DNA from: Arcobacter roscoffensis
Lineage (GTDB): Bacteria; Campylobacterota; Campylobacteria; Campylobacterales; Arcobacteraceae
Length of the DNA: 64,000 nucleotides
Assembly (NCBI RefSeq): GCF_024267655.1
Contig: NZ_CP100595.1
Location: 2,976,001 to 3,040,000 of the forward strand
Direction: 5' to 3'
Shown piece by piece: positions 6,689 to 18,193 of the stretch (positions are counted from its first letter, which is position 1; every line of letters starts with the position of its first letter). Under the pieces are notes generated by a model. It saw only the letters and a program-made list of their open reading frames with translations, ran no database searches and was not told where the DNA came from. The translations under genes and the position numbers were made by a program.

Positions 6689-7567
6689 ATGAGAATCAAT
6701 ACAAACGTAGCTTCTTTACAAGCAAGAGAAGCGAATGCAAATACAAATAAAACTTTAAACTCTTCATTAGAGAAATTAAGTTCAGGTCTTAGAATCAACA
6801 AAGCAAGTGATGATGCTTCAGGACTTGCAATTGCTGATAAATTAAGAACACAAGCAAGTGGTACAGGTCAAGCTATCTCAAATGGTAACTCTGCTATTGC
6901 TTTAACTCAAATTGCTGATAAAGCTATGGCTGAACAATCTAATATTTTAGATATTGTTAAAACGAAACTAATTCAAGCAGCTACTGCTACTACTTCTACT
7001 GCTGGTAGACAAGCTATTGGTAAAGATGTAGATAAACTATTAGATCAGTTAGACAATATTGCACAACAAACTAATTACAATGGTATTCAACTTTTACAAG
7101 GTGATACTACTTTTAGAACTGGGGCTACTGCTGCTTCACATACATTCCAAATGGGTGATAAAGCTGCTAATACTATTTCTACTAGTGATACTGTGCAATC
7201 AAATACAACTGGTTTAAGTTTAGGTGGTTTACTTGGTCAAGTTAGTGCTGGTGTTACTAGTGCTGGTGGAACTGGTCTTACTGCTGCTAATGCTAGAACT
7301 CAGATGTTAGAAATTGATCAAGCTTTAGATAAACTAAATGGATGGAGAGCGGACTTCGGTTCTACTCAAAACCAATTAGAATCAGCTGTTAGAAACCTAG
7401 CAACACAACAAACTAATATCAAAGCAGCTGAGTCTGTTATTAGAGATGTTGATTATGCTGCTGAAAGTGCTAACTTCAATAAACAAAACATTATCTCACA
7501 AGCTGGAACTTATGCTATGAGTCAGGCTAATAATGTATCTCAAAATGTTATGAGACTACTTCAATAG
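6689..7567 (+). CDS. Flagellin 1 (type A)
   Basis: Structural subunit of the flagellar filament, exported through the flagellar secretion channel. The 292-residue protein has the conserved N-terminal D0/D1 helices (MRINTNVASLQAREANANTN, then SLEKLSSGLRINKASDDASG) and the C-terminal D1/D0 helices ending NNVSQNVMRLLQ, joined by a short Ser/Thr/Gly-rich centre (about residues 130-210) with no large D2/D3 domains. The centre is the likely place for O-linked sugars. It is identical in protein sequence to flagellin 4. Unlike the six other flagellin genes it has a short unstructured leader with an exposed site (AAAGGGA) and its own TATAAT promoter, and a terminator follows it. Confidence 0.97.
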   Translation: MRINTNVASLQAREANANTNKTLNSSLEKLSSGLRINKASDDASGLAIADKLRTQASGTGQAISNGNSAIALTQIADKAMAEQSNILDIVKTKLIQAATATTSTAGRQAIGKDVDKLLDQLDNIAQQTNYNGIQLLQGDTTFRTGATAASHTFQMGDKAANTISTSDTVQSNTTGLSLGGLLGQVSAGVTSAGGTGLTAANARTQMLEIDQALDKLNGWRADFGSTQNQLESAVRNLATQQTNIKAAESVIRDVDYAAESANFNKQNIISQAGTYAMSQANNVSQNVMRLLQ

Positions 7568-7592
7568 AGATAAATAGTTAAAAAAGATAGAT

Positions 7593-7621
7593 AAGGTCTA
7601 GTTTTTTCTAGGCCTTTTTTT
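7593..7621 (+). terminator. Rho-independent terminator after flagellin 1
   Basis: A 9-bp stem (AAGGTCTAG with CTAGGCCTT, one G-T pair) with a six-T loop is followed by a run of Ts. It separates flagellin 1 from flagellin 2, so flagellin 2 needs its own promoter. Confidence 0.88.
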
Positions 7622-7678
7622 ATATCTTTGTTTTATTTAATCTAATTTTAAGAATTGGTGTGTAATAATTCTATTATA

Positions 7679-7842
7679 CCTTTAGGAAAAGGAATGACAC
7701 TTCTGGGTGTTAATCCCTTTCCTAAAGGGAAAATGTATAGGAATCAATTGATTCCGAAGAGTTAAACTCTATGCTTGGTGAAACAAGAATGTTATTAGGC
7801 TCCCGTATCAGGGTAAATCTTTTTAATCTCGAAAAGGATTTA
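7679..7842 (+). ncRNA. Structured leader of flagellin 2 (type B) with ribosome-site hairpin
   Basis: Probable 5' UTR element. In order: a long hairpin seen only in type B leaders (7679-7728, CCTTTAGG pairing with CCTAAAGG and extended inward); stem P2 GGAATCA/TGATTCC (7740-7755); the constant CGAAG; stem P3 AGAGT/ACTCT (7758-7770); constant ATG; stem P4 CTTG/CAAG (7774-7787); a constant block holding the CCC/GGG hairpin with loop GTATCA (7802-7813); and directly after it an 11-bp stem TAAATCTTTTT/AAAAGGATTTA (7814-7842) that contains the Shine-Dalgarno AAAGGA of the gene at 7845. The three stems P2-P4 differ in sequence from those of the other leader types but still pair. Confidence 0.7.
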
Positions 7843-7844
7843 TT

Positions 7845-8723
7845 ATGAGAATCAATACAAATGTAGCTGCTATGCAAGCTATGGAATCAAACTCAAATAC
7901 AAACAAAACTTTAGGTACTTCTTTAGAGAAATTATCTTCAGGTCTTAGAATCAACAAAGCTAGTGATGATGCTTCTGGTTTATCTATTGCTGATAAATTA
8001 AGAACACAAGCAAGTGGTACTGGTCAGGCTATTTCAAATGGTAGTTCTGCAATTGCTTTAACTCAAATTGCTGATAAAGCTATGGCTGAACAATCTAATA
8101 TTTTAGATATTGTTAAAACGAAACTAATTCAAGCAGCTACTGCTACTACTTCTACTGCTGGTAGAGTTTCTATTTCAAAAGACGTAGATAAACTGTTAAC
8201 ACAATTAGATAATATTGCTGCTCAAACTAACTACAATGGTATTCAACTTTTACAAGGTGATACTACATTAGCAAGTACAAATACAGCTTCTTCACATACA
8301 TTCCAAATGGGTGATAAAGCTGCTAATACTATTTCTACTAGTGATAGTGTACATTCTAATACAGTAGGGTTAAGCTTAAATGGTTTATCAGGAATGGTTA
8401 GTGCTGGTGTTACTAGTGCTGGTGGAACTGGTATTACAGCAGGAAATGCTAGAACTCAGATGTTAGAAATTGATCAAGCCTTAGATAGACTAAATGGATG
8501 GAGAGCAGACTTCGGTTCTACTCAAAACCAATTAGAATCAGCTGTTAGAAACTTAAGTACTCAACAAACTAATATTAAAAATGCAGAATCTGTTATTAGA
8601 GATGTTGATTATGCTCAAGAGAGTGCGAACTTTAATAAACAAAACATAATTGCACAAGCGGGGACTTATGCATTAAGTCAAGCAAATGCAATGCAACAAA
8701 ATGTTACTAGATTATTACAATAA
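7845..8723 (+). CDS. Flagellin 2 (type B)
   Basis: Flagellar filament subunit of 292 residues with complete N- and C-terminal flagellin helices (MRINTNVAAMQAMESNSNTN at the start, NAMQQNVTRLLQ at the end). It shares the 5' third and the 3' third almost exactly with flagellin 5, but its middle (about residues 107-215) differs: RVSISKDVDKLLTQ and TTLASTNTASS here against RQAIGKDVDKLLDQ and TTFRTGATASS in flagellin 5. The ATG is set by AAAGGA seven bases upstream, which is buried in the leader hairpin at 7814-7842. No terminator is seen before flagellin 3, so the two are probably on one transcript. Confidence 0.97.
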   Translation: MRINTNVAAMQAMESNSNTNKTLGTSLEKLSSGLRINKASDDASGLSIADKLRTQASGTGQAISNGSSAIALTQIADKAMAEQSNILDIVKTKLIQAATATTSTAGRVSISKDVDKLLTQLDNIAAQTNYNGIQLLQGDTTLASTNTASSHTFQMGDKAANTISTSDSVHSNTVGLSLNGLSGMVSAGVTSAGGTGITAGNARTQMLEIDQALDRLNGWRADFGSTQNQLESAVRNLSTQQTNIKNAESVIRDVDYAQESANFNKQNIIAQAGTYALSQANAMQQNVTRLLQ

Positions 8724-8755
8724 TTTGTATTGATTTATTTGTGGAGTTTATGGGG

Positions 8756-8878
8756 TTGAAACATTTATTATAGGGATCAAGTGATTCCGAAGAAGGCTCT
8801 CCTTCTATGCTTGGGTAAAATCAAGAACGTTTCAGGCTCCCGTATCAGGGTAAATCTTTTTATCATATAAAGGATTTA
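8756..8878 (+). ncRNA. Structured leader of flagellin 3 (type C) with ribosome-site hairpin
   Basis: Same architecture as the type B leader but with different stem sequences. An enclosing stem P1 is clearest here: TTGAAACATT (8756-8765) with AACGTTTCAG (8826-8835). P2 is GGGATCA/TGATTCC (8773-8788, with a G-U pair), P3 is AGAAGG/CCTTCT (8791-8806) in place of AGAGT/ACTCT, and P4 is CTTG/CAAG (8810-8825). The constant block with CCC/GGG and loop GTATCA is unchanged. The ribosome-site stem pairs TAAATCTTTT (8851-8860) with AAAGGATTTA (8869-8878), and its loop sequence differs from that of type B while the stem is kept. Confidence 0.7.
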
Positions 8879-8880
8879 TT

Positions 8881-9753
8881 ATGAGAATTAACACAAATGT
8901 AGCTGCAATGACAGCTCAAGAATCGGCATCAAGAACTAATTCTAATTTAAGTAATTCATTAGAAAAATTAAGTTCAGGTCTTAGAATTAATAAAGCAAGT
9001 GATGATTCATCTGGATTAGCAATTGCTGATAAACTAAGAACACAAGCAAGTGGTACAGGTCAAGCTATATCAAATGGTAATTCAGCTATTGCTTTAACAC
9101 AAATTGCTGATAAAGCTATGGCTGAACAATCTAATATTTTAGATATTGTTAAAACGAAATTAATTCAAGCATCAACTGCTACAACTTCTACTGCTGGTAG
9201 AGTTGCTATTTCAAAAGACGTTTCTAAATTATTAGACCAGTTAGATAATATTGCATCGCAAACAAACTATAATGGTATTCAACTATTACAAGCAAGTGCG
9301 ACAGGTACTGGAACAGCATCGTCACAAACATTCCAAATGGGTGATAAAGCTGCTAATACTATTTCTACTGGGGATAGTGTTCAGTCAAATACAACTGGAT
9401 TAAGTTTAGCGCCATTAGATGGTTTAGTTAGTGCTGGTGTTACTAGTGCTGGTGGAGCAGGTATTACTGCTGCTAATGCTAGAACACAAATGTTAGAAGT
9501 TGACCAAGCAATTGATAGACTAAATGGATGGAGAGCGGACTTCGGTTCTACTCAAAACCAATTAGAATCAGCTGTTAGAAACTTAGGTACACAACAAACT
9601 AACATCAAAAATGCAGAGTCTGTTATTAGAGATGTTGACTATGCTCAAGAGAGTGCGAACTTTAGTAAACAAAATATTGTTGCTCAAGCTGGTACTTATG
9701 CTATGAGTCAAGCCAATGCAATGCAACAAAATGTACTAAGATTATTACAATAG
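8881..9753 (+). CDS. Flagellin 3 (type C)
   Basis: Filament subunit of 290 residues. The N-terminus (MTAQESASRTNSNLSNSLEK, residues 10-29) and C-terminus (NFSKQNIVAQAGTYAMSQAN) mark a third sequence type. It differs from flagellin 6 only in a few residues of the central loop (LLQASATGTGTASS against LLQNSATNTGTASS). The missing two residues relative to the other types lie in this loop. The start is fixed by AAAGGA in the leader hairpin. A hairpin about 50 nt after the stop (9805-9836) probably ends the transcript. Confidence 0.97.
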   Translation: MRINTNVAAMTAQESASRTNSNLSNSLEKLSSGLRINKASDDSSGLAIADKLRTQASGTGQAISNGNSAIALTQIADKAMAEQSNILDIVKTKLIQASTATTSTAGRVAISKDVSKLLDQLDNIASQTNYNGIQLLQASATGTGTASSQTFQMGDKAANTISTGDSVQSNTTGLSLAPLDGLVSAGVTSAGGAGITAANARTQMLEVDQAIDRLNGWRADFGSTQNQLESAVRNLGTQQTNIKNAESVIRDVDYAQESANFSKQNIVAQAGTYAMSQANAMQQNVLRLLQ

Positions 9754-9772
9754 TTAATAATTTAAGGCTTGT

Positions 9773-9836
9773 GTTTAAATTAATATATTTAAACATTTAT
9801 AAATTAACTTTCAAGGATTTACTCCTTGTAAAGTTA
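9773..9836 (+). terminator. Hairpins after flagellin 3, probable terminator
   Basis: Two consecutive inverted repeats: GTTTAAAT/ATTTAAAC (9773-9794), then TAACTTT-CAAGGA pairing with TCCTTG-AAAGTTA (9805-9836, one bulged T). The second is followed by an AT-rich but not uniform T stretch, so termination efficiency is uncertain. The same pair recurs 3327 bp later. Confidence 0.5.
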
Positions 9837-9909
9837 TTTATATAAATCTTTAAATTATTGTTGTGAAATATCCGAGTAATATTTGATAAGAGTAATATGT
9901 AATTGTATA

Positions 9910-10013
9910 GGTATAAATTTATGCCGAAGAGTTAAAACTCTATGCTCAGTAATATGAGAAGGTTTTCAGGCTCCCGTATCAGGGTAAATCTTTTTAATCT
10001 CGAAAAGGATTTA
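9910..10013 (+). ncRNA. Structured leader of flagellin 4 (type D) with ribosome-site hairpin
   Basis: Third leader type. P2 is GGTATA/TATGCC (9910-9925, a U-G pair at the third position), P3 is AGAGT/ACTCT with a one-base longer loop, and P4 is CTCA/TGAG in place of CTTG/CAAG. The CGAAG, CTATGCT and CCC-GTATCA-GGG blocks are unchanged. The ribosome-site stem is TAAATCTTTTT (9985-9995) with AAAAGGATTTA (10003-10013). This leader is identical to that of flagellin 7 although the two genes encode different flagellin types, which marks the duplication junction. Confidence 0.7.
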
Positions 10014-10015
10014 TT

Positions 10016-10894
10016 ATGAGAATCAATACAAACGTAGCTTCTTTACAAGCAAGAGAAGCGAATGCAAATACAAATAAAACTTTAAACTCTTCATTAGAGA
10101 AATTAAGTTCAGGTCTTAGAATCAACAAAGCAAGTGATGATGCTTCAGGACTTGCAATTGCTGATAAATTAAGAACACAAGCAAGTGGTACAGGTCAAGC
10201 TATCTCAAATGGTAACTCTGCTATTGCTTTAACTCAAATTGCTGATAAAGCTATGGCTGAACAATCTAATATTTTAGATATTGTTAAAACGAAACTAATT
10301 CAAGCAGCTACTGCTACTACTTCTACTGCTGGTAGACAAGCTATTGGTAAAGATGTAGATAAACTATTAGATCAGTTAGACAATATTGCACAACAAACTA
10401 ATTACAATGGTATTCAACTTTTACAAGGTGATACTACTTTTAGAACTGGGGCTACTGCTGCTTCACATACATTCCAAATGGGTGATAAAGCTGCTAATAC
10501 TATTTCTACTAGTGATACTGTGCAATCAAATACAACTGGTTTAAGTTTAGGTGGTTTACTTGGTCAAGTTAGTGCTGGTGTTACTAGTGCTGGTGGAACT
10601 GGTCTTACTGCTGCTAATGCTAGAACTCAGATGTTAGAAATTGATCAAGCTTTAGATAAACTAAATGGATGGAGAGCGGACTTCGGTTCTACTCAAAACC
10701 AATTAGAATCAGCTGTTAGAAACCTAGCAACACAACAAACTAATATCAAAGCAGCTGAGTCTGTTATTAGAGATGTTGATTATGCTGCTGAAAGTGCTAA
10801 CTTCAATAAACAAAACATTATCTCACAAGCTGGAACTTATGCTATGAGTCAGGCTAATAATGTATCTCAAAATGTTATGAGACTACTTCAATAG
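10016..10894 (+). CDS. Flagellin 4 (type A, duplicate of flagellin 1)
   Basis: Filament subunit of 292 residues, identical in protein sequence to flagellin 1 and without any nucleotide difference that I noticed. Its upstream region, however, is not that of flagellin 1 but that of flagellin 7, so a type A coding region now sits behind a structured type D leader. This gene is therefore under different control from its twin. The same terminator follows as after flagellin 1. Confidence 0.97.
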   Translation: MRINTNVASLQAREANANTNKTLNSSLEKLSSGLRINKASDDASGLAIADKLRTQASGTGQAISNGNSAIALTQIADKAMAEQSNILDIVKTKLIQAATATTSTAGRQAIGKDVDKLLDQLDNIAQQTNYNGIQLLQGDTTFRTGATAASHTFQMGDKAANTISTSDTVQSNTTGLSLGGLLGQVSAGVTSAGGTGLTAANARTQMLEIDQALDKLNGWRADFGSTQNQLESAVRNLATQQTNIKAAESVIRDVDYAAESANFNKQNIISQAGTYAMSQANNVSQNVMRLLQ

Positions 10895-10919
10895 AGATAA
10901 ATAGTTAAAAAAGATAGAT

Positions 10920-10948
10920 AAGGTCTAGTTTTTTCTAGGCCTTTTTTT
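10920..10948 (+). terminator. Rho-independent terminator after flagellin 4
   Basis: Copy of the terminator at 7593-7621, exactly 3327 bp downstream: 9-bp stem, six-T loop, T run. Confidence 0.88.
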
Positions 10949-11005
10949 ATATCTTTGTTTTATTTAATCTAATTTTAAGAATTGGTGTGTAATAATTCTA
11001 TTATA

Positions 11006-11169
11006 CCTTTAGGAAAAGGAATGACACTTCTGGGTGTTAATCCCTTTCCTAAAGGGAAAATGTATAGGAATCAATTGATTCCGAAGAGTTAAACTCTATG
11101 CTTGGTGAAACAAGAATGTTATTAGGCTCCCGTATCAGGGTAAATCTTTTTAATCTCGAAAAGGATTTA
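11006..11169 (+). ncRNA. Structured leader of flagellin 5 (type B copy)
   Basis: Copy of the leader at 7679-7842, 3327 bp downstream, with no visible base change. It includes the long type B hairpin, stems P2-P4, the CCC/GGG hairpin and the stem that buries the AAAGGA site of the gene at 11172. Confidence 0.7.
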
Positions 11170-11171
11170 TT

Positions 11172-12050
11172 ATGAGAATCAATACAAATGTAGCTGCTAT
11201 GCAAGCTATGGAATCAAACTCAAATACAAACAAAACTTTAGGTACTTCTTTAGAGAAATTATCTTCAGGTCTTAGAATCAACAAAGCTAGTGATGATGCT
11301 TCTGGTTTATCTATTGCTGATAAATTAAGAACACAAGCAAGTGGTACTGGTCAGGCTATTTCAAATGGTAGTTCTGCAATTGCTTTAACTCAAATTGCTG
11401 ATAAAGCTATGGCTGAACAATCTAATATTTTAGATATTGTTAAAACGAAACTAATTCAAGCAGCTACTGCTACTACTTCTACTGCTGGTAGACAAGCTAT
11501 TGGTAAAGACGTAGATAAACTATTAGACCAGTTAGACAATATTGCACAACAAACTAACTACAATGGTATTCAACTTTTACAAGGTGATACTACATTTAGA
11601 ACTGGTGCTACTGCCTCTTCACATACATTCCAAATGGGTGATAAAGCTGCTAATACTATTTCTACTAGTGATACTGTAAGATCAAATACTACTGGATTAA
11701 GTTTAAATGGTTTAGTTGGAATGGTTAGTGCTGGTGTTACTAGTGCTGGTGGAACTGGTATTACAGCAGGAAATGCTAGAACTCAGATGTTAGAAATTGA
11801 CCAAGCAATTGATAGACTAAATGGATGGAGAGCAGACTTCGGTTCTACTCAAAACCAATTAGAATCAGCTGTTAGAAACTTAAGTACTCAACAAACTAAT
11901 ATTAAAAATGCAGAATCTGTTATTAGAGATGTTGATTATGCTCAAGAGAGTGCGAACTTTAATAAACAAAACATAATTGCACAAGCGGGGACTTATGCAT
12001 TAAGTCAAGCAAATGCAATGCAACAAAATGTTACTAGATTATTACAATAA
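11172..12050 (+). CDS. Flagellin 5 (type B ends, type A-like centre)
   Basis: Filament subunit of 292 residues. The first 106 residues and about the last 80 match flagellin 2, whereas the middle carries type A features (RQAIGKDVDKLLDQLDNIAQQ, TTFRTGATASS). This mosaic pattern suggests gene conversion from a type A neighbour after the duplication. The start is fixed by AAAGGA within the leader hairpin; no terminator is seen before flagellin 6. Confidence 0.97.
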   Translation: MRINTNVAAMQAMESNSNTNKTLGTSLEKLSSGLRINKASDDASGLSIADKLRTQASGTGQAISNGSSAIALTQIADKAMAEQSNILDIVKTKLIQAATATTSTAGRQAIGKDVDKLLDQLDNIAQQTNYNGIQLLQGDTTFRTGATASSHTFQMGDKAANTISTSDTVRSNTTGLSLNGLVGMVSAGVTSAGGTGITAGNARTQMLEIDQAIDRLNGWRADFGSTQNQLESAVRNLSTQQTNIKNAESVIRDVDYAQESANFNKQNIIAQAGTYALSQANAMQQNVTRLLQ

Positions 12051-12082
12051 TTTGTATTGATTTATTTGTGGAGTTTATGGGG

Positions 12083-12205
12083 TTGAAACATTTATTATAG
12101 GGATCAAGTGATTCCGAAGAAGGCTCTCCTTCTATGCTTGGGTAAAATCAAGAACGTTTCAGGCTCCCGTATCAGGGTAAATCTTTTTATCATATAAAGG
12201 ATTTA
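12083..12205 (+). ncRNA. Structured leader of flagellin 6 (type C copy)
   Basis: Copy of the leader at 8756-8878, 3327 bp downstream, without visible change, including P1, the AGAAGG/CCTTCT version of P3 and the 10-bp ribosome-site stem ahead of the ATG at 12208. Confidence 0.7.
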
Positions 12206-12207
12206 TT

Positions 12208-13080
12208 ATGAGAATTAACACAAATGTAGCTGCAATGACAGCTCAAGAATCGGCATCAAGAACTAATTCTAATTTAAGTAATTCATTAGAAAAATTAAGT
12301 TCAGGTCTTAGAATTAATAAAGCAAGTGATGATTCATCTGGATTAGCAATTGCTGATAAACTAAGAACACAAGCAAGTGGTACAGGTCAAGCTATATCAA
12401 ATGGTAATTCAGCTATTGCTTTAACACAAATTGCTGATAAAGCTATGGCTGAACAATCTAATATTTTAGATATTGTTAAAACGAAATTAATTCAAGCATC
12501 AACTGCTACAACTTCTACTGCTGGTAGAGTTGCTATTTCAAAAGACGTTTCTAAATTATTAGACCAGTTAGATAATATTGCATCGCAAACAAACTATAAT
12601 GGTATTCAATTATTACAGAATAGTGCAACTAATACAGGTACAGCAAGTTCACAAACATTCCAAATGGGTGATAAAGCTGCTAATACTATTTCTACTGGTG
12701 ACAGTGTTCAGTCAAATACAACTGGATTAAGTTTAGCGCCATTAGATGGTTTAGTTAGTGCTGGTGTTACTAGTGCTGGTGGAGCAGGTATTACTGCTGC
12801 TAATGCTAGAACACAAATGTTAGAAGTTGACCAAGCAATTGATAGACTAAATGGATGGAGAGCGGACTTCGGTTCTACTCAAAACCAATTAGAATCAGCT
12901 GTTAGAAACTTAGGTACACAACAAACTAACATCAAAAATGCAGAGTCTGTTATTAGAGATGTTGACTATGCTCAAGAGAGTGCGAACTTTAGTAAACAAA
13001 ATATTGTTGCTCAAGCTGGTACTTATGCTATGAGTCAAGCCAATGCAATGCAACAAAATGTACTAAGATTATTACAATAG
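12208..13080 (+). CDS. Flagellin 6 (type C, duplicate of flagellin 3)
   Basis: Filament subunit of 290 residues, the same as flagellin 3 except in the central loop near residues 138-146 (NSATNTGTASS) and a few silent changes close by (for example GGTGAC for GGGGAT). The rest of the gene and both flanks appear identical to the first copy. Confidence 0.97.
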   Translation: MRINTNVAAMTAQESASRTNSNLSNSLEKLSSGLRINKASDDSSGLAIADKLRTQASGTGQAISNGNSAIALTQIADKAMAEQSNILDIVKTKLIQASTATTSTAGRVAISKDVSKLLDQLDNIASQTNYNGIQLLQNSATNTGTASSQTFQMGDKAANTISTGDSVQSNTTGLSLAPLDGLVSAGVTSAGGAGITAANARTQMLEVDQAIDRLNGWRADFGSTQNQLESAVRNLGTQQTNIKNAESVIRDVDYAQESANFSKQNIVAQAGTYAMSQANAMQQNVLRLLQ

Positions 13081-13099
13081 TTAATAATTTAAGGCTTGT

Positions 13100-13163
13100 G
13101 TTTAAATTAATATATTTAAACATTTATAAATTAACTTTCAAGGATTTACTCCTTGTAAAGTTA
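13100..13163 (+). terminator. Hairpins after flagellin 6, probable terminator
   Basis: Copy of the inverted-repeat pair at 9773-9836, 3327 bp downstream. The second hairpin (13132-13163) is the stronger one; the T stretch after it is imperfect. Confidence 0.5.
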
Positions 13164-13236
13164 TTTATATAAATCTTTAAATTATTGTTGTGAAATATCC
13201 GAGTAATATTTGATAAGAGTAATATGTAATTGTATA

Positions 13237-13340
13237 GGTATAAATTTATGCCGAAGAGTTAAAACTCTATGCTCAGTAATATGAGAAGGTTTTCAGGCTC
13301 CCGTATCAGGGTAAATCTTTTTAATCTCGAAAAGGATTTA
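13237..13340 (+). ncRNA. Structured leader of flagellin 7 (type D)
   Basis: Identical to the leader of flagellin 4: P2 GGTATA/TATGCC, P3 AGAGT/ACTCT, P4 CTCA/TGAG, the CCC/GGG hairpin and the 11-bp stem (13312-13340) that buries AAAGGA ahead of the ATG at 13343. It is probably the original type D leader. Confidence 0.7.
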
Positions 13341-13342
13341 TT

Positions 13343-14224
13343 ATGAGAATTAATACAAATGTAGCTGCTATGCAAGCTATGGAATCAAACTCAAACACAA
13401 ACAAAACTTTAGGTACTTCTTTAGAGAAATTATCTTCAGGTCTTAGAATCAACAAAGCTAGTGATGATGCTTCTGGTTTATCTATTGCTGATAAACTAAG
13501 AACACAAGCAAGTGGTACAGGTCAAGCTATCTCAAATGGTAACTCTGCTATTGCTTTAACTCAAATTGCTGATAAAGCTATGGCTGAACAATCTAATATT
13601 TTAGATATTGTTAAAACGAAACTAATTCAAGCAGCTACTGCTACTACTTCTACTGCTGGTAGACAAGCTATTGCAAAAGACTTATCAAAATTACTTGATC
13701 AATTAGATAATATTGCACAACAAACTAATTACAATGGTATTCAACTTTTACAAGGTGATACTACTTTTAGAACTGGGGCTACTGCTGCTTCACATACATT
13801 CCAAATGGGTGATAAAGCTGCTAATACTATTTCTACTGGGGATAGTGTACAATCAAATACTACTGGTTTAAGTTTAGGTGGATTAGTTGGAGTTGTAAGT
13901 GCTGGAGTAATTAGTATTGGTTCGACTTCAGTTATCGCACAAGCAGGTGCTAGAACAGCTATGTTACAAGTTGATAATGCCTTAGATAGACTAAATGGAT
14001 GGAGAGCGGACTTTGGTTCTACTCAAAACCAATTAGAATCAGCTGTTAGAAACTTAGGTACTCAACAAACTAATATTAAAAATGCAGAATCTGTTATTAG
14101 AGATGTTGATTATGCTCAAGAGAGTGCGAACTTTAATAAACAAAACATAATTGCACAAGCGGGGACTTATGCATTAAGTCAAGCAAATGCAATGCAACAA
14201 AATGTTACTAGATTATTACAGTAA
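13343..14224 (+). CDS. Flagellin 7 (type D, mosaic)
   Basis: Filament subunit of 293 residues. The N-terminus is type B-like (AAMQAMESNSNTNKTLGTS), the middle has the type A TTFRTGATAAS segment, then a unique stretch (VVSAGVISIGSTSVIAQAGARTAMLQVDNALD, about residues 184-215 in all), and the C-terminus is type B. It lies exactly 3327 bp after flagellin 4 and closes the array. A strong terminator shared with the convergent maf gene follows. Confidence 0.97.
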   Translation: MRINTNVAAMQAMESNSNTNKTLGTSLEKLSSGLRINKASDDASGLSIADKLRTQASGTGQAISNGNSAIALTQIADKAMAEQSNILDIVKTKLIQAATATTSTAGRQAIAKDLSKLLDQLDNIAQQTNYNGIQLLQGDTTFRTGATAASHTFQMGDKAANTISTGDSVQSNTTGLSLGGLVGVVSAGVISIGSTSVIAQAGARTAMLQVDNALDRLNGWRADFGSTQNQLESAVRNLGTQQTNIKNAESVIRDVDYAQESANFNKQNIIAQAGTYALSQANAMQQNVTRLLQ

Positions 14225-14230
14225 AGCTTA

Positions 14231-14268
14231 AAAATGATAAAAGGTTTAATTTACCCTTTTATCATTTT
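14231..14268. terminator. Bidirectional terminator between the flagellins and maf1
   Basis: A 14-bp perfect stem, AAAATGATAAAAGG with CCTTTTATCATTTT, with A and T runs on its outer sides, so it can act on both strands. It overlaps the last codons and stop of the convergent Maf gene. Confidence 0.85.
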
Positions 14269-16309
14269 CTTCAATAATATCCTCTAAATAGTCTTTATAT
14301 TTTGTTAATAATTTACTAAGAATATTTGACCAAGCCTTTATAACTTTTTTGATATTTACCTTATCTTTTTTATCTTTTATTAGAATACAATATGATATAT
14401 AAGGATTAAAAGCTAATGTATATGTAACATAAATCTCTTTTAAGTAATTAATCTTATTTTCTGGATTCATCAAATATTGAAATATTTCATTAGCAAAAAT
14501 ATTAAATTCATCATATGTTTTTATCTTTTCTGTTAAGTTAAGTTGTTCTAAAATTTCATTTACCATATTGAGATGACTATTTAAACTTTTTAAATCTCTT
14601 TTAGATAAGTTTTCAACTACAATAGACTCTAAGTCCTCAGTTAAAGACTCTTTTAAATTCTCTTTATCTATTTTTGTAAAGTCATCAACTTTTAGATCTA
14701 TACTTTTTAAAGGAATAGTATTTTCAATAAATGCTCCATGATTGCTTAAATTATATGTGCTAACACTATTTAATTTTGTTTGACCTATATAAAATCTTAA
14801 TGAACCATAAAATTGTCTACTTGTTAAAACTTCTTTTTGAAAGTTACCTCTTATTTTAATTACATCATCTTTAAAAGAGTAGTTTTCATTAACTTCAAGT
14901 TTATTAAGGTCTTCAATATCTAATTTCTTATTATATTCGTAGTCAGATGAATGAGTTGAACCCGTATTTTGATTTAATGCCAAGTCTAAACCTAATAAAT
15001 AAATCTCTTTAATATTAACAAATCTAGAAATTATAGAGTAAGTCAACTCTCCAACAGAGTTACCAGTTAAAGCTTTATGTCCAACTTGAATAGAACCTAA
15101 TACTTCATATAAATAAACTCTACTTATTTTTGAAAGTTTTTCTAAAACGTTTTCAGCTGTATTAATAGAAGCAAGCACAATAGTATCTGCTAAAAGTTCT
15201 TTTAAATCAGGATTACTAAAAAGCTGAATATCAACATAATGCTGTGGATCTAATGTAGTTATAATATCTGGTTTAATTTTATTCTCAAATAATATATTAA
15301 GTGTCGCTGCCATAGTTACAATAATAAATCTATCTTGATTTTCATAAACCCATTCTATATTATCATTTAAAGATGGTCCTGCTCCAATATATAAAATAGG
15401 CTTATTTTCAAAGGATTTTAATTCAAGATTATCTCTTAATGATAAAGTTTTATATTTAAAGAAATTTTTCGACAAGTTATAAACAACATTATCTAAATTC
15501 ATATAATAATTGAAAGACATAGGACTTACAGATAATACTCTATCAATTATTCTATCAAAATAATTTTTAACATCATGATTTGTAGTATAGAATTTTAAAA
15601 TAGAGTTATTATAAACATCCATATTATAAAAATCCAGCACTTTTTCTAATAAAATATTATCATCATCCATTATCGAAAAAATTACCTTTCTTCCTTCTAC
15701 TGCCAAGGCACTGTAATCACAAACAAATAAAGATAATCTAAATATTTCTAAATTGTTCTCACAAACAAAAAAAGTTTTGGCATTGATCTTTTTCATAATT
15801 TTAGGGATATGTCTACCAAGTAATGTCCCAATAAACATAAACTTATCAATTTTATTTATTCTTCTATTTTCTCTATCTATTTTATAATCTAACTCTTCTT
15901 TTATTTTAAATAAATCATTCATAAGCTTTTTACCAGCAATTGAATAAATTCCCTCATCTTCATCTAAGCTAAAATCACCATCATTTTCATGATTATAAAA
16001 CCCTTGATTTAAAGTATTAATACTATTTTTTAAATCAAAATTAGTTTGTACAACTGCTTTATTATTAAACTTTTTTGGTTTTTTGTCATATAAATATTTA
16101 TCTTTTTCATTATCATAAATATCAAAGTCTCCTGACTCTTTTATAAACTCCAAAAAATATCTTTCTTTATATAAACCTTTACCCATTAAATCACCCAAGT
16201 GTGTAACTCTAATAAATAATTCATTATCAAACTCAGATAAAAATAATAGATTTAAATGGTATGTATCCATCATAGCTTTATGTAGTTGTTCTTCAGCAGA
16301 CAAGTCCAT
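14246..16309 (-). CDS. Motility accessory factor (Maf, DUF115) protein 1
   Basis: A 687-residue protein of the Maf family, which in Campylobacter, Helicobacter and Aeromonas transfers nonulosonic acids such as pseudaminic acid to flagellin before export. The core DUF115 domain (MptE-like Rossmann fold) covers about residues 290-470, with the typical KPILYIGAGPSLNDNIEWV start, VTMAATLNILFENKIKPDIITTLDP, and LTGNSVGELTYSI...EIYLLGLDLAL. An N-terminal family domain includes FIGTLLGRHIPKIMKK. The C-terminal part is helical and variable. Its place between flagellins and a pseudaminic-acid operon supports the role. ATG 16309 has AAGGA upstream and a TATAAT (16335-16340) on its strand. Confidence 0.93.
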   Translation of the reverse strand: MDLSAEEQLHKAMMDTYHLNLLFLSEFDNELFIRVTHLGDLMGKGLYKERYFLEFIKESGDFDIYDNEKDKYLYDKKPKKFNNKAVVQTNFDLKNSINTLNQGFYNHENDGDFSLDEDEGIYSIAGKKLMNDLFKIKEELDYKIDRENRRINKIDKFMFIGTLLGRHIPKIMKKINAKTFFVCENNLEIFRLSLFVCDYSALAVEGRKVIFSIMDDDNILLEKVLDFYNMDVYNNSILKFYTTNHDVKNYFDRIIDRVLSVSPMSFNYYMNLDNVVYNLSKNFFKYKTLSLRDNLELKSFENKPILYIGAGPSLNDNIEWVYENQDRFIIVTMAATLNILFENKIKPDIITTLDPQHYVDIQLFSNPDLKELLADTIVLASINTAENVLEKLSKISRVYLYEVLGSIQVGHKALTGNSVGELTYSIISRFVNIKEIYLLGLDLALNQNTGSTHSSDYEYNKKLDIEDLNKLEVNENYSFKDDVIKIRGNFQKEVLTSRQFYGSLRFYIGQTKLNSVSTYNLSNHGAFIENTIPLKSIDLKVDDFTKIDKENLKESLTEDLESIVVENLSKRDLKSLNSHLNMVNEILEQLNLTEKIKTYDEFNIFANEIFQYLMNPENKINYLKEIYVTYTLAFNPYISYCILIKDKKDKVNIKKVIKAWSNILSKLLTKYKDYLEDIIEENDKRVN

Positions 16310-16375
16310 GTTAGTCCTTTTTTAAATATTAATTATTATACTAAGATTTTATTAAATAAGGGTATAATAATAACC
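16310..16375. promoter_or_regulatory. Divergent promoters of the two maf genes
   Basis: A TATAAT on the minus strand (16335-16340) faces maf1 and a TATAAT on the plus strand (16363-16368) faces maf2. The plus box ends only 7 nt before the ATG at 16376, so if it is used the maf2 transcript would begin at or next to its start codon. Confidence 0.5.
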
Positions 16376-18193
16376 ATGCAAGAACTACAAGAAACAATAA
16401 TTCAGATTTATCAAAAAAATATAATTTTTCTAAAAAAGAACTACTTTGAGATTTATAAAAAAATAGAAGATTTAGAAAAAAATCTTCTAGAAACTTATCA
16501 TCTTGATTACATAGATAATCATTTTGAATTGATTCATCAAGATAAAAAAATATATAATTGTGACCCTTTTTATGATGGCCAATACAGAGCTAAAAATATC
16601 TACAACAATGAAAATATAATTTCATTAATTGATCCAAATAAAACTCTTGTATCCTATGGGGATATAGATGAAGAAGTAGAAACATCTGAATTTATAAATG
16701 AATATGTAGAGCAGTTAAAAAATATTGAAATACCAAAAGAACAAAGTAATAAATTCATATTCTTAGGTACTTTACTTGGTGTTCATTTAAATGATATCCA
16801 TAGAGTTTTAAACTCAAAAGTTTATTTAATTATAGAGCCAAATATAGAAATTTTTAGATTATCTTTATTCCTTACTGATTATGAAGAGATTGCTCAAAAT
16901 AGTCAAATATTTTTTAGTATTTCACAAAATGAAGAAGAACTTAAAAACTGCATTATTAATTTCCTAAAATATAAATCTAGTTACAACAACTTTATTAGAT
17001 TTGAGCTTGCAAGTTCTAATGAACTTGATTTGGTTTCAAAAGTAAGTGAAATATTAACTTTAGAAAATAAAATAAGATACCCTTTTGCAGAATATATTTA
17101 TAGTTTAAAAAGAGGTTTTTATTACCTAAAAAACAATCAAAATGGCATTTTAAAAACTATTATAAAAAAAGATTTTTTACAAGAAAAACCTATCTTATTT
17201 TTAGCTGCAGGACCTTCTTTAGATAAAAATGTTGACTTTATAAAAGAGTGTAAAGATAGATTTATAATAGTTACAGCAGCTGCCATTTTAAAGTTTTTGG
17301 AAAGTCATCAAATACACCCTGATATTATAATCTCAATTGATGCAGGGGAAACAACAGTTAGAAATCAATTTGATGTAAATAAAGAGTTTTTTAAAGACTC
17401 TTTAATTATTAGTTCAATTAAAACTGACCCAAAAATCTATGAAGAGATAAATAATAGTAATATATTTTTTATTCAGACATCTATTGAATTTTTGATAAAT
17501 ACAGGCTTGATCCCAGGAGTTACTGTAGGAGATATTGGTTTAAAAATTTTACTTACTCTTGGGGCAAAAGAGATCTATTTATTAGGATTAGATGCAGCTA
17601 TTGATGAAAAAACAGGAGAAACACACTTCTCTTCATACTATTACAATAAAGAGATTCAAAAAGAAGAAGAGAATAACTATAAAAACTATCTTGTAGATGT
17701 AAAAGGAAACTTCAATAATAATGTTAAAACCACATTACTTTATAAAGATATGATTGAAAGTATAAATGAAATAAAAGAAGATTTAATTAAAGGCTCTTCT
17801 ATATACAATCTATCTAAAGGGGCTTACTTTAATAATACAAAACCTTTAAAACTTTTAGATATAAATACTAGTAATTTCAAAAAGTTTGATAAAAACTCTT
17901 ATATTAAATCTTTAATAAATCAATTAAAAACTATCACAAGAAAAGAACTTGAAAAAATTGATATAAACGAAATGAAAAAAGAGAGTAAAGTAATTAAAAA
18001 ACTAAAAACATCTAAAAATATAGAAAAAGATTTTGAAAAATTAAAAAACAATTTCCCAACATCTTTTGTTATTCAAATATTAGATGAATTTTTTCTTCTT
18101 ACAAATCCTTATAGTTCTTATCTTGAAGATAAGTGTATTCAACTTTCACAGATAAATAGAATTTTAAATACCTTTGAGGAGATTTATAACTAA
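16376..18193 (+). CDS. Motility accessory factor (Maf, DUF115) protein 2
   Basis: A second Maf-type protein, 605 residues from the ATG at 16376. An in-frame ATG exists at 16286 but it lies inside the divergent maf1 gene and upstream of both promoters, and homology to maf1 starts only after residue 31 of that longer reading (QELQETIIQIYQKNIIFL). The DUF115 core is clear: KPILFLAAGPSLDKNVDFI, ILKFLESHQIHPDIIISID and GVTVGDIGLKILLTLGAKEIYLLGLDAAID. It also shares FLGTLLGVHLNDI with maf1. It is likely to glycosylate flagellin, perhaps with another sugar or at other sites. AAGGG lies 13 nt upstream, rather far, so initiation may be leaderless. Confidence 0.92.
   Translation: MQELQETIIQIYQKNIIFLKKNYFEIYKKIEDLEKNLLETYHLDYIDNHFELIHQDKKIYNCDPFYDGQYRAKNIYNNENIISLIDPNKTLVSYGDIDEEVETSEFINEYVEQLKNIEIPKEQSNKFIFLGTLLGVHLNDIHRVLNSKVYLIIEPNIEIFRLSLFLTDYEEIAQNSQIFFSISQNEEELKNCIINFLKYKSSYNNFIRFELASSNELDLVSKVSEILTLENKIRYPFAEYIYSLKRGFYYLKNNQNGILKTIIKKDFLQEKPILFLAAGPSLDKNVDFIKECKDRFIIVTAAAILKFLESHQIHPDIIISIDAGETTVRNQFDVNKEFFKDSLIISSIKTDPKIYEEINNSNIFFIQTSIEFLINTGLIPGVTVGDIGLKILLTLGAKEIYLLGLDAAIDEKTGETHFSSYYYNKEIQKEEENNYKNYLVDVKGNFNNNVKTTLLYKDMIESINEIKEDLIKGSSIYNLSKGAYFNNTKPLKLLDINTSNFKKFDKNSYIKSLINQLKTITRKELEKIDINEMKKESKVIKKLKTSKNIEKDFEKLKNNFPTSFVIQILDEFFLLTNPYSSYLEDKCIQLSQINRILNTFEEIYN

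Follow-up and report, generated by a model that had tools for sequence, protein, structure and literature searches.

Flagellin genes and leader copies in the window

The window analysed here, a stretch of 64,000 nucleotides from Arcobacter roscoffensis corresponding to positions 2976001-3040000 of the complete chromosome of 3,154,193 bp (genome G000), contains seven flagellin open reading frames (ORFs) with starts at 6689, 7845, 8881, 10016, 11172, 12208 and 13343, six of which are preceded by a structured leader RNA. The six leader-preceded genes span 7845-14224 on the + strand (7845-8723, 8881-9753, 10016-10894, 11172-12050, 12208-13080 and 13343-14224), and were assigned from their ORFs and from matches to Flagellin_N (PF00669) in the same genome. 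A preliminary description of this region had placed a riboswitch-like leader in front of six flagellin genes; six such genes do indeed carry the leader, but the first gene of the array (6689-7567) is a seventh flagellin ORF and is leaderless. A leaderless flagellin gene also comes first in several other genera, behind apparently the same upstream gene, a putative tRNA methyltransferase-like ORF.

The repeated block was confirmed at six places: AGGCTCCCGTATCAGGGTAAATC occurs on the + strand at 7797, 8834, 9968, 11124, 12161 and 13295, with no copy in 100 shuffles, and a search of the entire 3.15 Mb genome allowing up to three mismatches returned the same number of copies, all within the window. 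The leaders, likewise all on the + strand, are of three types. Leader 1 (type B; 7734-7847), which belongs to flagellin 7845 and scored 105.8 and 77.1 bits respectively with the models R1 and R3 introduced below, comprises a core (7734-7791), a P5-like hairpin and a hairpin enclosing the Shine-Dalgarno (SD) sequence, and extends as far as the start codon. Leader 2 (type C; 8767-8883; flagellin 8881; 84.2 and 55.9 bits) and leader 3 (type D; 9904-10018; flagellin 10016; 101.9 and 70.9 bits) complete the set, as a tandem duplication of 3327 bp, in which the unit 6689-10015 recurs at 10016-13342 with its three flagellin genes plus leaders, has rendered leader 4 (type B; 11061-11174; flagellin 11172), leader 5 (type C; 12094-12210; flagellin 12208) and leader 6 (type D; 13231-13345; flagellin 13343) identical to leaders 1, 2 and 3. 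The duplicated units differ by 62 mismatches, every one located within 8166-9375. Because the leaders are identical in pairs, the window by itself provides three independent sequences, a thin basis for which relatives were needed in order to make the case.

Upstream of leader 1 lies a promoter-like element (TTAAGA, 18 nt, TATTAT; 7648-7677, + strand), the TTAAGAATTGGTGTGTAATAATT of which recurs at 10975 and is conserved in other genera; a corresponding element, TTTAATCTAATTTTAAGAATTGGTATGTCATAATT, stands just upstream of the leader in many genera. Terminators were detected on the + strand of the window upstream of leaders at 7593 and 10920, and none between leader and flagellin ORF, an arrangement which probably puts each leader close to the 5' terminus of a transcript of its own, with an inferred start site, and which argues for control of translation rather than attenuation. 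Attenuation by a terminator was rejected on the same ground. The flagellin genes of genus g20 (G102, L149 and L150) possess a version of the promoter-like element with no leader behind it, and so constitute a natural comparison for leader function.

Three further observations concern the surroundings of the leaders. In most genera (L033-L102) a TGTGTCATAAT-like sequence occurs twice, once in the upstream promoter-like element and once just before the SD sequence. Between promoter and core, type B leaders contain one more strong hairpin (CCTTTAGGAAAAGG...CCCTTTCCTAAAGG; 7679-7728 and 11006-11055), which was not seen in the relatives in G091; the stretch 7672-7860, which includes it, has a folding z of -6.0. 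Adjoining the flagellin array are two similar large ORFs, 14246-16309 on the - strand (687 aa) and 16286-18193 on the + strand (635 aa), which have the appearance of putative motility accessory (Maf-type) proteins.

Core fold, covariation and distribution in Arcobacteraceae

The core consists of roughly 55 nt in which three short hairpins, P2, P3 and P4, are joined by invariant unpaired bases. In leader 1, P2 (7740-7755) is formed by GGAATC (7740-7745) and GATTCC (7750-7755) around an AATT loop, and double-sided changes affect four of its six pairs in the family as a whole; P3 (7758-7770) pairs AGAGT (7758-7762) with ACTCT (7766-7770), and all four of its modelled pairs change on both sides. 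An invariant ATG follows, then P4 (CTTG, 7774-7777, with CAAG, 7784-7787) and AATG, together occupying 7771-7791. The unpaired bases that do not vary are UA ahead of P2, one A within the P2 loop, the RA linking P2 to P3, the AUG linking P3 to P4, and AA behind P4; in all, about 19 bases of the core are invariant or nearly so, including that first UA, the loop A of P2 (RAUK), the A in the RA that follows P2, AUGCU and AGAA. The stems and blocks listed in the preliminary description, with P3 as AGAGT/ACTCT or AGAAGG/CCTTCT, P4 as CTTG/CAAG or CTCA/TGAG and the third pair of P2 as A-U, G-U or U-G, are all present in the sequences, and RNAalifold applied to the window leaders recovered P2, P3 and P4 together with their pair changes unaided.

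Pattern searching in 104 family genomes located the block in two further genera, once in G080 and 11 times in G091, and a model (R1) extending from P2 to GGGTAAATC was built from these. R1 matched 70 of the 104 genomes, and its matches among 399 sampled genomes of the order were confined to Arcobacteraceae. As the R1 alignment indicated that the 3' half differs between genera, a second model (R3) was built from 34 sequences of the core alone. With R3, matches were obtained in 76 of the 104 Arcobacteraceae genomes, in 69 of the 88 of good quality and in 15 of 20 genera, with a best E of 6e-16; throughout 397 genomes of the phylum, every match below E = 0.001 lay within the family. Ten weak matches outside it (E 0.0016-0.03) were dismissed as chance: of the seven representatives checked, none stands before a flagellin gene and most fall within coding sequence, with three in a single conserved gene (...YGSMLDYLR...). 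One weak match within the family (G041 C32, L134) was also discarded, being inside a gene.

The stems proved to be highly variable across genera, with P2 appearing as GGAAUC/GAUUCC, GGGUUG/CAAUCC, GGUAUC/GAUACC or GGGAGC/GCUUCC, P3 as AGAG/CUCU, GAAG/CUUC, AGGG/CCCU or AAGG/CCUU, and P4 as CUUG/CAAG, CUCA/UGAG or CUAG/CUAG. Standard pairs make up 98.3% of helix cells in the 34 sequences of the core, ten of the 14 pairs are changed on both sides, and 55 cells show double-sided changes as against 8.7 in shuffles. Equivalent figures for 101 distinct leaders are 98.4% pairing and 156 double-sided changes (25 +- 4 in shuffles), and sliding the partner strand by one to three columns lowered pairing to 30-53%. 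Mutual information computed over all columns ranked eight column pairs at the top, all of them predicted pairs. When the null was generated by evolving columns independently on a FastTree tree, using an R-scape-like script of our own, seven pairs were significant at E <= 0.017, every one of them predicted, whereas none of the unpredicted pairs fell below 0.28, the best standing at E = 0.4. The helices of this structured cis-acting leader RNA are thus backed by significant covariation and, to judge from the aligned sequences, the core is well supported as a selected RNA fold, as had been proposed for the window from its three leader types. Homologous leaders with covarying pairs, the absence of which beyond this strain had been named in advance as grounds for abandoning the proposal, exist in 76 genomes and 15 genera.

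The constant place of the leader is 5' of one gene class, flagellin. All 76 leader-bearing genomes have flagellin, the 101 distinct leaders lead straight into a flagellin start, and among leaders read all but two or three do so. Those without a flagellin start are L053, which reads MRIMTN, and L083, which is cut by a contig end; no flagellin start follows L097:812-885, and the weak L127 hit has no intact one. Arrays of leaders are found in several genomes, with 11 copies in G091, six in the window and five in G050.

No Rfam 15 family matched the window at its gathering score. At a relaxed score the sole match touching a leader in 7650-10020 was a GIR1 ribozyme at chance level (E 1.8; 15 bits, where the gathering score is 100), and across 20 diverse loci only two hits were obtained (E 0.15-0.22), both outside the leaders. 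The earlier failure to recognise a known class is therefore upheld, the leader matching none of the cyclic di-GMP (c-di-GMP)-I/II, THF, preQ1 or SAM models of that release, and the leader is a new RNA family, absent from Rfam. Literature searches returned no account of a leader RNA of flagellin genes in Arcobacter, and an unnamed listing in the supplement of Stav et al. 2019 is possible.

The 3' half and the ribosome-binding site

In leader 1 the core is followed by AGGCT and a CCC-GTATCA-GGG hairpin (7797-7813), which occupies the place of a covarying hairpin, P5, in other genera, and then by a hairpin (7814-7842) in which TAAATCTTTTT (7814-7824) pairs with AAAAGGATTTA (7832-7842), burying the SD sequence AAGGA (7834-7838) in this manner in the window leaders. 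The preliminary description was accurate as regards the fold that it listed, but missed this 3' half, comprising the TAAATCTTTTT/AAAAGGATTTA hairpin and, in relatives, the fourth covarying hairpin. In most genera the core is succeeded by a GGCUG-like linker, P5, AAUGUGUCAUAA and then the SD sequence. The arms of P5 vary widely (UGUGA...UCACA, UGUAAAC...GUUUACA, GUGAUAA...UUAUCAC and many others), with loops from 3 nt up, and some 40 different stems with compensating arms identify it as the fourth covarying hairpin.

Closure of the ribosome-binding site (RBS) is achieved in two ways. In the start-codon type, which is that of most genera, UCAUAAU and AUUAUGA form a helix about the start codon; in the SD type, found in the window genus, g15, G091 and G069, a CCC...GGG hairpin or variant is followed by UAAAUCUUUU pairing with AAAAGGAUUUA, thereby closing the SD sequence. 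The pairing probability of the SD sequence or the AUG, whichever was the higher, exceeded 0.8 in 84 of the 101 leaders and averaged 0.91, compared with 0.69 when the linkers were shuffled (p = 2e-15); about 12% of shuffled linkers reached the leader average. Separation by type demonstrated that in start-codon leaders the SD sequence is more open than in shuffles (0.27 vs 0.46) and the AUG more closed (0.86 vs 0.57), and that in SD leaders it is the SD sequence that is closed (0.96 vs 0.56). In L080 and L130 UCAUAA has been lost, and the AUUAUG before the gene has been lost as well. One conserved core standing beside two differing means of closing the RBS constitutes the strongest sign of an expression platform; the closing hairpin, in its two alternative designs, is accordingly the predicted platform at the RBS.

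Regulatory interpretation and comparison with known systems

The complement of flagellar regulators in the family provides the setting for any function. CsrA was detected in none of the 104 genomes with control genomes positive, and no sigma-28 (FliA) exceeded the cut-off in any of them, the strong matches residing in frames of more than 600 aa, the size of RpoD. Sigma-54 (RpoN) is patchy, being present in 33 of the 104 genomes and in 8 genera, and is absent from G000. FliW was identified in 66 of the 104 genomes (in G000 at G000:C1:2796193-2796516), having thus been kept even though none of the 104 encodes its known partner CsrA. Among flagellin-bearing genomes it accompanies the leader in 55 of 76 and occurs in ten of the 18 without one, which amounts to no association (Fisher p 0.26), and with 21 of the 76 leader genomes devoid of FliW its role as an obligatory partner was ruled out. 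Miller et al. 2007 (PMC2147049) recorded the loss of RpoN and FliA in A. butzleri and proposed that regulation there is completely novel, and mutants in its extracytoplasmic function (ECF) sigma factors were unchanged in motility (PMC3445524). The present survey extends the picture of Miller et al. 2007 to the family.

The leader is probably a new family of cis-acting mRNA element that controls flagellin translation in Arcobacteraceae. According to this proposal, the closing hairpin would keep flagellin translation low by default, a factor reading flagellar or cell state would bind the invariant core, and the bound factor would change access to the RBS, so that the leader would take over the job done in relatives by sigma-28/FlgM and CsrA-FliW. 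Computation established the core together with P5, the hairpin that closes the RBS, the exclusive link with flagellin and the family-wide distribution; the switching is what we infer from these. Several points weigh against the proposal. Eighteen of the 94 flagellin-bearing genomes have no detected leader, such that flagellin can be made without one, and flagellin genes lacking it also occur in many genomes. Screening for another conserved sequence with which the RBS-closing strand might pair yielded nothing consistent, with the result that no alternation of two states can be seen; the core may instead be coupled to the RBS by tertiary contacts or via a bound protein. In silico the closing hairpin amounts to between about 4.5 (start-codon type) and 8.7 kcal/mol (SD type), the weaker of which may be opened by initiating ribosomes, and its covariation is hardly testable because RBS and start codon scarcely vary.

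As to the factor itself, a protein appears slightly more likely than a small molecule, given the restriction to one gene family and one lineage. A flagellar or RNA-binding protein that sets flagellin translation from the core by autogenous or assembly-linked control, in the manner of ribosomal-protein leaders, is a good possibility that falls a little short of probable: it would suit the many copies in arrays (11 in G091, six in the window) and the absence of any other gene class, and relatives do control flagellin translation by means of a protein on the leader, as with CsrA on flaA in C. jejuni (PMC4894983), yet CsrA is missing, FliW is excluded as obligatory partner and the binder is hypothetical. 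A riboswitch in which the core serves as aptamer, for example for c-di-GMP, and the ligand alters access to the flagellin RBS is possible but more doubtful. The anatomy would be appropriate, with invariant unpaired bases held by variable helices and followed by a separate expression hairpin, and Miller et al. 2007 (PMC2147049) give the number of c-di-GMP proteins in A. butzleri as 25. Against this, the leader stands solely before flagellin genes and solely in one family, and no Rfam riboswitch model matches. Second-messenger riboswitches usually control several gene families. An autoregulatory leader that binds a protein would account for the exclusive tie to one gene family in one bacterial family no less well than a riboswitch, and the latter label is to be regarded as a hypothesis until ligand binding is shown.

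Readings that dispense with a specific factor fare less well. Structured 5' ends stabilise abundant mRNAs, and in most genera the hairpin at the RBS is weak and rich in A and U, as might be expected of an RNA thermometer, but hairpins that passively protect the message or melt with temperature leave about 19 invariant bases unexplained, among them the unpaired UA, RA, AUG and AA that are kept while the helices vary freely, and this is considered unlikely. A promoter, operator or recombination repeat acting at the level of DNA is very improbable. The P5 arms TGTGA-N6-TCACA do resemble a CRP site, with an exact TGTGAN6TCACA in some genomes, and TGTGTCATAAT resembles an upstream promoter element, a similar sequence being present both upstream and in the 3' half; however, G-U pairs, which the preliminary description had rightly held against a DNA operator, together with compensating double changes, variable P5 loop lengths and insertions in P3 and P4, are features of RNA, and the g20 flagellin genes keep the upstream element without the leader, hence the two are separable. 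A CRP-type operator in particular was ruled out by the variable length of the P5 loop. That the invariant AUG of the core initiates a leader peptide from an upstream ORF is hardly credible: in types B and D its reading frame ends at a stop codon that overlaps the start of the flagellin gene, but over the 101 leaders the frames are spread 37/36/28 and range in length from 3 codons to open, and the bases before the AUG are pyrimidine-rich, unlike an SD sequence. With no conserved short ORF among those leaders, the leader peptide was rejected.

A bolder proposal, advanced tentatively and with rather more doubt than confidence, is that a new riboswitch class or RNA-protein checkpoint replaced both sigma-28/FlgM and CsrA-FliW for flagellin family-wide, and that it gates the translation of flagellin by direct sensing of a second messenger or of flagellar assembly. 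The leader is a strong candidate for the missing control point of flagellum building in bacteria without sigma-28 and CsrA, and over 100 leader sequences are ready for probing and for a ligand search.

Comparison with previously reported RNAs begins with Stav et al. 2019 (PMC6429828), who scanned Arcobacter sp. L and examined 38 intergenic regions; most of the remaining novel regions were left unnamed as confined to Arcobacter. Those motifs come from the same bacterial family, and the main text of that article is silent on flagella and flagellin. The flaA leader of C. jejuni, a member of the same phylum, is likewise a structured flagellin leader controlling translation, a role that is predicted for the present leader; there CsrA acts as repressor through GGA motifs located in two stem-loops, and FliW antagonises it (PMC4894983). 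Both C. jejuni and Arcobacteraceae have FliW in many genomes. Unlike the C. jejuni system, however, the family has no CsrA in its 104 genomes, R3 finds no leader in sampled genomes outside Arcobacteraceae, and the P2 loop is RAUK, the GGA of CsrA-regulated leaders not being conserved there. The c-di-GMP-I and c-di-GMP-II riboswitches are structured leaders that may precede motility genes, and the present leader is similarly structured and similarly placed, but neither the window nor the 20 diverse loci gave an Rfam match to them at any useful score. Autoregulatory leaders of ribosomal-protein genes are lineage-restricted, attached to one gene family, proximal to the RBS and equipped with a strongly conserved core. 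All four traits are common to them and to the Arcobacteraceae leader, in which the binder is hypothetical and the gene is flagellin.

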